Shown here one piece after another: positions 19,351 to 38,432 of a stretch of 64,000 nt of DNA. The position numbers and the translations under genes are program-made. Every line of letters starts with the position of its first letter. The first letter of the stretch is position 1. The notes under the pieces are model-generated. The model saw only the letters and a program-made list of their open reading frames with translations. It was not told the DNA's origin and did not search any database. This DNA is from Gemella sp. zg-570 (GTDB taxonomy: Bacteria; Bacillota; Bacilli; Staphylococcales; Gemellaceae), in the NCBI RefSeq assembly GCF_018866345.1, contig NZ_CP076443.1:333501-397500 (forward strand), written 5' to 3'.

Positions 19351-20412
19351 ATGAGTGAAAAATTAACACTAAAAAAACTATTTAATATTGTTTTAAATGG
19401 TATGGCAATAGGTATAGTTTCTGGTCTTATAGCAAACGCAGTTCTTAGTGCAGTGTTTAAGTACGCAGGAAAATTATTTTTGTCAGACTTTTTCGCAACG
19501 GCGAGCAAGGCTGTATATTTATTACAATTTGCAGTTCCTGTTTTAATAGGTTCATTAATAGCAATTTCAATGAAGTTTACACCTTTAGAAAATACTGTTC
19601 TTGGTGCTGCTTTATTAGCAGGTAGTGGTTCGATAGTTTATAATGCACAATTAAAAGCATATACAACAACACCTGTTGGGGACTTGTTTAATGTGCTTCT
19701 TGTTGCTTTGATTGCTACTTATATTATTAAATCAGTGAGTGGAAAATTCGGTTCATTAGCAATTATTTTCTTGCCAATAGTAGGTGGGGGACTACCAGCT
19801 TTAATAGGTTTGTATACATTACCATATATGCAAAAACTTACTAAATTTTTAGCTGATATTGTTTTATCATTTACTACATTGCAACCTTTAGTTATGTGTA
19901 TGTTGATAGCTATGTCGTTCTCATTCTTTATAGTTACACCAGTATCTACTGTTGCAATGGGTATTATTTTATTCTCTAATACAAATTATTTAGGAGCAGG
20001 AGCTTCTGCTATTGGAGTTTTATCAGCAGCAGCTGTACTTATGATAGGTTCAATAAAAGTTAAAAATCCGTCAGGAGTAAGTTTAGCCATAATACTTGGT
20101 GCTATAAAACTTATGATGCCTAACGTGGCGAGGACTCCACTTCTTTTAGTTCCTATATTAGCTACTGCGGCTACGACTGGTTTATCAGTCTGGGCATTTA
20201 ATATTTTAGGCGATCAAACAAGTGCAGGTTTTGGTATTATAGGATTAATAGGACCACTTAAAGCTATTGAAAAGGGAGCTAGTGTATTAGTAGTATTCTT
20301 AGTTTATATAGTTATACCTTTTGTATCAGCATTTATATATGATAAAATATGTACAGATGTTTTAAAATTATATAAAAAAGATGCTTATAGTGGAGCAAAA
20401 TACGATAATTAA
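19351..20412 (+). CDS. PTS IIC-like membrane protein, PfoR/COG3641 family (second copy)
   Basis: A 353-residue polytopic membrane protein paralogous to the one at 693-1745. The shared blocks are LNGMAIGIVSGLIANAVLS, VSGKFGSLAIIFLP, SFTTLQPLVMCMLIAMSFS, TPVSTVAMG and SAGFGIIGLIGPL. About ten TM helices are predicted. It has no adjacent IIA or IIB, so substrate and energy coupling are open. It has its own ribosome site (AAAGGAG) and is closed by a strong terminator, so unlike the first copy it is monocistronic. Confidence 0.8.
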   Translation: MSEKLTLKKLFNIVLNGMAIGIVSGLIANAVLSAVFKYAGKLFLSDFFATASKAVYLLQFAVPVLIGSLIAISMKFTPLENTVLGAALLAGSGSIVYNAQLKAYTTTPVGDLFNVLLVALIATYIIKSVSGKFGSLAIIFLPIVGGGLPALIGLYTLPYMQKLTKFLADIVLSFTTLQPLVMCMLIAMSFSFFIVTPVSTVAMGIILFSNTNYLGAGASAIGVLSAAAVLMIGSIKVKNPSGVSLAIILGAIKLMMPNVARTPLLLVPILATAATTGLSVWAFNILGDQTSAGFGIIGLIGPLKAIEKGASVLVVFLVYIVIPFVSAFIYDKICTDVLKLYKKDAYSGAKYDN

Positions 20413-20419
20413 TTTTTTA

Positions 20420-20452
20420 AATAGGTTTGGAATTTCCGAACCTATTTTTTAA
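20420..20452 (+). terminator. Terminator after the second PfoR-like gene
   Basis: Stem AAATAGGTTtGG / CCgAACCTATTTT with loop AATTT and a T run. Confidence 0.88.
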
Positions 20453-20540
20453 TAAATTATTAACTATGCTTTATCTTTAAAATTTTTATTTGACTATTTT
20501 ATAATTTAATGTTAGAATTAGTACTAAAAAATTTAATAAA

Positions 20541-20612
20541 AGATGTTTGAGAGATCCATCTATAAAAAAAACTAGCTAAACACTAGCCTCTCATATTCTA
20601 GTGTTTTTTTGT
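20541..20612 (+). promoter_or_regulatory. Candidate preQ1-I-like riboswitch with terminator, upstream of queT
   Basis: AGATG (20541-20545) can pair with CATCT (20557-20561) to make a P1 stem. This is followed immediately by an A-rich tail ATAAAAAAAACTAG, the layout of class-I preQ1 aptamers. A terminator AACACTAG / CTAGTGTT plus T run (20579-20611) follows. The tail ACTAG can also pair with the 3' terminator strand CTAGT, giving a plausible antiterminator. The L1 loop (TTTGAGAGATC) differs from the textbook loop. The downstream gene is a queuosine-precursor transporter, which supports the call. Confidence 0.5.
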
Positions 20613-20642
20613 TTTTATTCTTGAACATTGTAAGGAGGATAA

Positions 20643-21170
20643 ATGAGAAATAATAAAGTTAAAATTTTAACACTGCAAGCCTTAATAGCCGCCATATATG
20701 TAGTGCTGACAGTATCTAATCTTAGTTTTTCTTATGGAGCTATACAGTTTAGATACAGTGAATCTTTAGCCCAATTAGTAGTATTCAGTCCACTGTTTTG
20801 GGTGCCGATTACTTTGGGTGTAGCTATTGCTAATTTTTTTAGTCCCTTAGGTCTTGTTGATGTATTTTTTGGAACCTTAGGAACAGGGCTTGCTTTAGCT
20901 TTAAGTATATTTATTTTTAAATTTATTAAAAATAGAATAGTTAGACACATTGTTAATATAGTAGTTTATTTAGGGGTATGTATGCCTATTATTGCTTATG
21001 AGATTGCAATATTTTCAGGAGAAAATTCAGCAAGAGTTGCTTTTGAATGGGATGTTTTTGTAGCAATATATGCTTCTTTACTTCTATCGCAATTCTTAGT
21101 TATGGGTTTTGGTATATTCATAACAGAAATTTTAAACAAGGCAGTAAACTTAGAAAAAATATTCAAATAA
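20643..21170 (+). CDS. queT: QueT family queuosine precursor transporter
   Basis: A small (175 residues) membrane protein, the substrate-binding S component of ECF-type or stand-alone queuosine-precursor uptake. Family features are the N-terminal QALIAAIYVVLTVSNLSFSYG, IQFRYSESL, the ANFFSPLGLVDVFFGTLG motif and about five TM helices. AAGGAGG precedes the ATG. The preQ1-like leader upstream fits regulation by the transported precursor. No other queuosine biosynthesis gene is nearby, suggesting salvage rather than synthesis, but only the window can be judged. Confidence 0.88.
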   Translation: MRNNKVKILTLQALIAAIYVVLTVSNLSFSYGAIQFRYSESLAQLVVFSPLFWVPITLGVAIANFFSPLGLVDVFFGTLGTGLALALSIFIFKFIKNRIVRHIVNIVVYLGVCMPIIAYEIAIFSGENSARVAFEWDVFVAIYASLLLSQFLVMGFGIFITEILNKAVNLEKIFK

Positions 21171-28818: not shown

Positions 28819-28825
28819 ATCTAAA

Positions 28826-28975
28826 GTCAGTTTAAAATGTACCTAAGACAGTAGGGAACGAAAGTTTTAATAATCCTACCGAGGACGATAATAAAAAGAG
28901 TATTATGTTATGCCTTTTTGTGTGTTCTCGCATGCAGAAAGGTTCTTTTATTGGTACAATGAGATTGATAAATCT
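28826..28975 (+). ncRNA. L10 leader (ribosomal protein autoregulatory leader)
   Basis: The roughly 150-base untranslated leader between the promoter and rplJ carries the conserved core of the bacterial L10 leader: TACCTAAGACAGTAGG, then AATCCTACCGAGG, and the downstream stem containing TGCCTTTTTGTGTG and GCAGAAAGG. The L10(L12)4 complex binds this kink-turn-containing RNA to repress its own operon in Bacillus and E. coli; that function is family knowledge. Confidence 0.85.
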
Positions 28976-38287: not shown

Positions 38288-38432
38288 TATTGAATACGAA
38301 AGTAGAAGCACCAGTTTCTCACCTGCACTCGTTTAGGATGTTAGGTTAGTAATAATTTTAGAATTATTTAGGCTGGATGTATTATGTACATTCAGCCTTT
38401 TGTTTTTATAGTATTTGATGAATTATATAAAT
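38288..38432 (+). ncRNA. L20 / infC leader with attenuator
   Basis: The untranslated leader of infC-rpmI-rplT holds the conserved block GAAGCACCAGTTTCTCACC (38301-38321 region) and CTCGTTTAGGATGTTAGG. A hairpin GGCTGGATGTATTATGTACA paired with TTCAGCC follows, then TTTTGTTTTTAT (about 38370-38408), a transcription attenuator. In Firmicutes, L20 binds such leaders to trigger termination. The match in context and in architecture is good; individual base pairs were not checked computationally. Confidence 0.75.

Follow-up and report, generated by a model that had tools for sequence, protein, structure and literature searches.

The window, a stretch of 64,000 nucleotides from the 1.56-Mb genome of Gemella sp. 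zg-570, carries on its forward strand a gene of the QueT transporter family (queT, 20643-21170; PF06177, 5.6e-28, 98.5 bits), for which preQ1 import is the role given in the literature (PMC11625349). The leader on the same strand contains a hairpin, P1, formed by AGATG (20541-20545) and CATCT (20557-20561) and closed by the loop L1, TTTGAGAGATC (20546-20556). The A-rich tail ATAAAAAAAACT follows at 20562-20573, or ATAAAAAAAACTAG at 20562-20575 in a longer reading. Downstream lies a 9-bp hairpin (20578-20606; arms 20578-20586 and 20598-20606) with loop CCTCTCATATT and a T run after it, a probable intrinsic terminator, whose apex includes CTCTCA (20588-20593). The Shine–Dalgarno sequence AAGGAGG occupies 20632-20638. 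Reading the sequence bore out P1, the A-rich tail, the odd L1 and a six-base complementarity between L1 and the apex, all lying where the first-pass annotation had placed them.

We number the leader from window position 20541 as base 1, which puts P1 at 1-5/17-21, L1 at 6-16, the A-rich tail at 22-33, the hairpin at 38-46/58-66, the Shine–Dalgarno at 92-98 and the queT start codon at 103-105. A possible sigma-A promoter (TTGACT, 17 nt, TAGAAT, with TG before the -10; 20490-20518, forward strand) agrees with the consensus at 10 of 12 positions; the scan of the region returned three sites against a shuffle mean of 2.4 and so gave no support above chance. The only Rfam matches in the window to reach gathering level are an L10 leader (28824-28957, forward strand, 79.7 bits) and an L20 leader (38294-38409, forward strand, 64 bits).

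Conservation of the aptamer core

In class I preQ1 riboswitches, which are pseudoknots of minimal size, ligand binding is coupled to the gene through the helix P2. The covariance search suggested in the first-pass annotation, with model RF00522, returned a match at the expected place (20536-20581); at 19.5 bits, with E 0.12 in a search of 401 bases, it stayed below the gathering score of 39. On the opposite strand, a match at 20403-20450 scored 21.4 bits, above the real element; it spans an inverted repeat just downstream of a PTS EIIC gene and looks like a chance product of GGTTCG with an A/T-rich flank. The preQ1-II model and the other Rfam families gave no gathering-level match at the place of the aptamer.

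By RF00522 the window alone is not significant, and it is the comparison across Gemellaceae that makes the element so. The 19-base core GATGTTTGAGAGATCCATC occurs with no mismatches at one site per genome in all 15 Gemellaceae genomes compared, each time in the queT leader; the search tolerated up to three mismatches, and a reversed-pattern control gave three matches across the 15 genomes. In the alignment of the 15 leaders (12 distinct rows), bases 1-21, including the P1 5′ strand, and bases 23-32 are invariant, while most of the downstream sequence varies. This conservation supports the earlier claim of a class-I preQ1-like aptamer before queT. The loss of P1, tail or loop complementarity among relatives, which had been named as evidence against that claim, was looked for in the comparative alignment and not found: P1 and the tail are kept in every leader and the complementarity between L1 and the apex in 14 of the 15.

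The exact pattern of L1 and the A-run was found at 53 loci in a genome collection covering 84,980 species by one genome each, and at 2 in viral contigs. Only the 10 Gemella loci among the 53 have the 5-bp AGATG/CATCT P1; of the 45 matches outside Gemella, 44 have at most four contiguous pairs at the place of P1, and the remaining one (L099) has five, three of them G–T.

RF00522 at E ≤ 0.001 matched none of the 15 Gemellaceae genomes, compared with 115 of the 150 genomes of the order that were searched, these 15 included (33 of the 150 exceeded the cut-off), and even at E ≤ 1 it was absent from the 11 Gemella loci tested of the 15. In one neighboring family, all 15 QueT loci examined (L016-L030) have canonical RF00522 leaders scoring 49.7-53.8 bits. 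Their L1 loops, such as UUCGCAAACUC, measure 11 bases in 12 loci and 12 bases in three, and in all 15 the tail CUAAGG (AAGG) is the Shine–Dalgarno itself, held in the pseudoknot. We also built a covariance model from the Gemella leaders only and ran it on 398 genomes of the class. It gave 74 rows at E ≤ 1, and the 20 best were taken as loci. Besides the window's own, five of the best 19 matches have an RF00522 gathering-level match at the same place and the other 14, without one, resemble A/T-rich hairpins; none of these best 19 of the 73 non-own rows is an element of the Gemella type.

Taken alone, the window with its sub-threshold score could be read as no riboswitch at all, a chance look-alike or a stretch conserved for another reason, for example as a protein site. 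Such a reading is hardly credible in the face of a mismatch-free core in 15 queT leaders, the retention of six pocket bases and the reciprocal retrieval of preQ1-I elements by the Gemella model.

The 30 loci of the class that score best for the QueT family (PF06177) were also scanned. In 29 of them (L103-L131) no preQ1 riboswitch reaches Rfam gathering level, and these transporters perhaps differ in substrate or in control; the remaining locus (L132) has a preQ1-II element and no RF00522 match at that level.

The binding pocket and the missing P2

In the type I preQ1-I structure (Carnobacterium antarcticum), the bases U6, U7, U16, C17, A30 and C31 are needed for recognizing two stacked preQ1 molecules (PMC8752633). 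The equivalents of all six, numbered after that paper, are kept in 15 of 15 leaders: the first UU of L1 stands for U6 and U7, its last UC for U16 and C17, and A20571 and C20572 for A30 and C31. As the Gemella L1, with 11 bases, is one base shorter than that of the structure (a length shared by 12 of the 15 neighboring loci), the equivalence was assigned by place next to P1. The G5 equivalent is likewise invariant, and that of U32, T20573 in the window, is kept in 13 leaders and replaced by C in L008 and L009. Further likenesses to type I as described in PMC8752633 are the 5-bp P1 with G–C on top, the UU at the start of L1, the UC before the P1 3′ strand, the A-rich tail ending in AC and the occurrence before queT genes. 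The arrangement typical of class I, a P1 hairpin with a cytosine just before its 3′ strand followed by an A-rich tail, is invariant in the 15 leaders and hence shows no covariation.

The P2 pseudoknot between L1 and the tail is a different matter. The bases after AC(U/C) vary among the leaders, and the partner present in the type I elements (CUAAGG / AAGG) is absent from the Gemella tail. L1 is indeed nonstandard, as had been claimed: GAGAG stands where the usual P2 strand would be, with U in place of C8 and A in place of C10 of the type I structure (PMC8752633). The ceiling triple C8–A12–U32 is incomplete, position 8 being U and position 12 being A in all 15 leaders and the U32 equivalent being present in 13. 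The largest remnant of P2 is the A12–U32 equivalent pair, possible in 13 of the 15. In the window, moreover, the Shine–Dalgarno lies 59 bases past the tail, with the hairpin and a UCUCUU strand inserted between them, unlike the type I elements of PMC8752633.

With the six named contact bases kept, the pocket looks ordinary, and the suggestion of a variant binding subclass does not hold in the form proposed. As far as sequence can tell, the element retains the type I pocket and has lost P2; this would make it a known kind of riboswitch in which the expression platform is rewired and the pocket is not new. It lacks two marks of class I membership, P2 and a sufficient Rfam score, and L1 is probably its switching strand.

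The ligand we infer to be preQ1, bound perhaps as two molecules. QueA is found in all 15 Gemellaceae genomes, and Tgt and QueH in that of Gemella sp. zg-570. The matches to QueC are weak, at 18.5-31.8 bits, although 14 of 15 genomes have one above the 22-bit cut-off. They lie in frames of 370-439 aa and presumably represent other PP-loop enzymes. Together, the presence of Tgt, QueA and QueH and the weakness of the QueC matches would fit preQ1 import by QueT and a riboswitch that lowers this import. A queuine-specific switch was also considered; Tgt, QueA and QueH fit preQ1 import. The search of QueT against solved structures gave no match. QueH of Gemella sp. zg-570 (contig C1, 769742-770276, reverse strand) is split into two overlapping frames, covering profile positions 1-122 and 22-173, the second with five stops, and the gene may be frameshifted or mis-sequenced.

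Two predicted pairing partners of L1

The first partner is the hairpin apex, where CTCTCA is the exact complement of TGAGAG in L1 (20548-20553). A contiguous complement of 6-9 pairs, and of 12 in L008/L009, is kept in 14 of the 15 leaders, though the hairpin stems differ. The exception, L003, is alone among the relatives in having a hairpin loop without UCUC; in its nascent RNA, L1 nevertheless finds a partner in a CUCU within the 5′ arm of the stem. There, an antiterminator-like helix joins L1 and the P1 3′ side (GAGAGAUCCAUCUAU) to AUAGAU..GGAU.CUCU of this arm.

All 12 distinct leaders have a hairpin with a U-rich 3′ side, which lies partly inside the stem; a simple terminator scan, whose loops stop at 8 bases, lists no hairpin in the window. 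The hairpins are 9-12 bp long and separated from the pocket C by 1-6 bases, and their predicted loops shrink to five bases in L004 and L012 and to three in L008/L009. We folded successively longer prefixes of the transcripts, without pseudoknots. All 12 distinct leaders went through the same steps: before transcription reached the 3′ arm of the hairpin, L1 gave up P1 and paired with the UCUC segment (peak probability 0.93-1.00); the hairpin then closed, and L1 moved to a strand further downstream (0.64-1.00 at the longest length folded). The signal at the apex is modest, the pairing of L1 downstream of the tail in transcripts cut just after the apex being reached by 9-135 of 1,000 dinucleotide shuffles per leader.

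The apex could alternatively serve the bound state: L1 GAGAG of the preQ1-bound aptamer would dock onto the loop UCUC while the hairpin stays intact, a kissing loop would stand in for P2, and the ligand would stabilize the terminator. The persistence of the apex UCUC and of its contiguous complement over varying stems, together with the disappearance of the P2 partner from the tail, speaks for such docking, and a loop docking onto an expression-platform hairpin is known from cobalamin riboswitches (PMC10907184). We nevertheless consider it unlikely. L003 has no such loop and the loops of four other leaders are small; the complement often enters the stem, and prefix folding sets the pairing against P1. 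The short linker, we infer, would hardly allow the far end of the hairpin to return to the pocket. On account of L003, the small predicted loops and the entry of the complement into the stem, we read the apex pairing as probably an antiterminator of the ligand-free nascent RNA and not as a bound-state contact.

The apex complementarity was thus retained in all leaders but one, yet it is not supported as the main novelty of the locus. The more conserved partner of L1 is a strand that the first-pass annotation had not mentioned. Between the hairpin and the Shine–Dalgarno, the sequence UCUCUURARCA is complementary to leader bases 4-14, that is, to the P1 5′ strand and L1, with 10-12 contiguous pairs in all 15 leaders. 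In this helix, 163 of 165 cells pair (11 columns by 15 rows); over the 12 distinct rows the proportion is 98.5%, and it drops to 43-71% once the partner strand is shifted along by one to three columns. Variation is confined to five of the 11 downstream columns; in three of these it consists only of A/G or C/U exchanges that leave the pair intact, and in the other two of one unpaired cell each. As the aptamer side never varies, this variation is compatible with the helix and does not amount to two-sided covariation. The window's strand UUCUUGAACAUU has lost the pair at aptamer position 14, where A now faces A, and has added two pairs at its opposite end; TTCTTGAACATT (20618-20629) pairs with 20542-20553 over 12 bp, four of them G–U. 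Leader by leader, 29-135 of 2,000 dinucleotide shuffles equal the best complementarity, which falls on the downstream strand in 13 leaders and on the apex in two (L008 and L009); the case therefore rests on conservation.

One explanation of this conservation would pair L1 with UCUCUU in the bound state, as a P2 with a long loop that blocks the ribosome by proximity. UCUCUU does lie close upstream of the Shine–Dalgarno, which type I switches need not bury in order to block translation (PMC11625349). The complement, however, extends into the P1 5′ strand, position 5 being paired in all 15 leaders and position 4 in 14, and a helix that reaches this strand cannot form while P1 exists, which makes the explanation very improbable.

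UCUCUU is also complementary to AAGGAG(A) of the Shine–Dalgarno, and in the computed structures the same strand pairs, in a mutually exclusive manner, with either the aptamer or the Shine–Dalgarno, as expected of a sequestor and antisequestor. We modeled the bound state by forcing P1 and blocking L1 and the tail, the energy of preQ1 binding and the pseudoknot being outside the folding model. The mean probability of the Shine–Dalgarno being unpaired over the 15 leaders was 0.87 in the free and 0.11 in the P1-forced ensemble, and in the window the predicted sequestor with P1 forced joins TTTATTCTT (20614-20622) to 20635-20643. The difference between the two states ranged from 0.47 to 0.94 across the 12 distinct leaders, and the switch was weakest in the window and in L013/L014, where the Shine–Dalgarno was still unpaired at 0.38 and 0.33, respectively, with P1 forced. 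Among 400 shuffles each for the 12 distinct leaders, the observed difference was reached by 0-15 when all sequence between the tail and the Shine–Dalgarno was shuffled, by 0-29 when only the last 24 bases were (L013 being worst in both of these controls), and by 0-2 when only L1 was. The antisequestor pairing had a probability of 0.57-1.00 at full length, lowest in L012 and L005 (0.57-0.59). The free ensemble was computed to be better than the P1-forced one by 1.8-6.0 kcal/mol, a gap that ligand binding could pay for.

The downstream strand could also be kept for pairing with the Shine–Dalgarno alone. In the fuller form of this argument, the element would be a plain type I preQ1-I aptamer with a drifted L1 and an ordinary terminator, and the downstream pairings would be by-products of GAGAG resembling a Shine–Dalgarno, in line with the kept pocket bases and the U-rich 3′ sides of the hairpins. 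Drift sits badly with the invariance of GAGAG in 15 of 15 leaders; RARC(A), superfluous for pairing with the Shine–Dalgarno, also stays complementary to L1 and P1, and shuffling L1 cuts the mean computed difference to at most 0.08 in 12 of 12 distinct leaders. We regard this account as rather unlikely.

Proposed switch and known systems

These elements, their conservation and their mutually exclusive complementarities can be read from the aligned leaders, and the reading that we favor, with somewhat better than even confidence, is that of an OFF switch derived from type I preQ1-I, acting on queT when preQ1 is plentiful, in which L1 serves as antisequestor and probably, earlier, as antiterminator. 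Without preQ1, the P1 5′ strand and L1 (UGUUUGAGAGA) would pair with UCUCUURARCA beside the Shine–Dalgarno, keeping that strand off it, and ribosomes would bind. With preQ1, P1 and L1 would be locked in the aptamer, by homology perhaps around two stacked molecules; the freed UCUCUU would then pair with AAGGAG and translation would stop. Earlier in transcription, while the 3′ arm of the hairpin is still to come, L1 would probably pair with the apex UCUC and delay the terminator, except when preQ1 keeps L1 occupied.

A more far-reaching version gives the one loop three successive uses: it would form half of the preQ1 pocket, act as antiterminator at the UCUC of the terminator apex and serve as antisequestor at the second UCUC, that beside the Shine–Dalgarno. 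P2 would have been lost, and a two-tier OFF switch, first of transcription and then of translation, would have arisen in Gemellaceae. We put it forward tentatively, as a serious possibility that falls somewhat short of even chances.

Several known systems resemble parts of the proposed switch. The preQ1-I switch of Bacillus subtilis queC, which is of type II and controlled by a terminator, likewise has a class I aptamer followed by a terminator; as described in PMC11625349, its P2 forms and favors the terminator, whereas in Gemella L1 itself would compete and a second competitor would act on the Shine–Dalgarno side. Translational OFF switches, too, have a sequestor and an antisequestor that exclude each other near the ribosome site, and dual expression platforms combine a terminator with ribosome-site control (PMC2258182). 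In the dual platforms of that account the ribosome site lies inside the terminator, while in Gemella two separate pyrimidine strands would compete for one aptamer loop. The complementarity of an aptamer loop to a loop of the expression platform recalls the cobalamin L5–L13 kissing loop (PMC10907184), from which the Gemella element differs in that docking with an intact hairpin is unsupported in some relatives. Among the matches listed in searches of the open-access literature, we found no description of a Gemella preQ1 element, and the single match for preQ1 together with antisequestor was a general survey.

If the proposal is true, the helix that couples an aptamer to the gene can be exchanged without loss of the pocket, and the Gemella leaders would allow testing whether P2 is needed for preQ1 binding, including that of two molecules. 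They would also provide a compact natural case of one loop driving two successive decisions, and their altered platform would explain why an Rfam scan shows no switch before Gemella queT.

Five loci (L138, L140, L137, L146 and L134) have preQ1-I elements scoring 43.4-49.5 bits with RF00522, downstream of which come a hairpin and then a strand resembling AGTTCAAGAACTCTCT. This strand is partly complementary to GGTTC...GAACTC of the same aptamer and may represent a related use of an aptamer strand.
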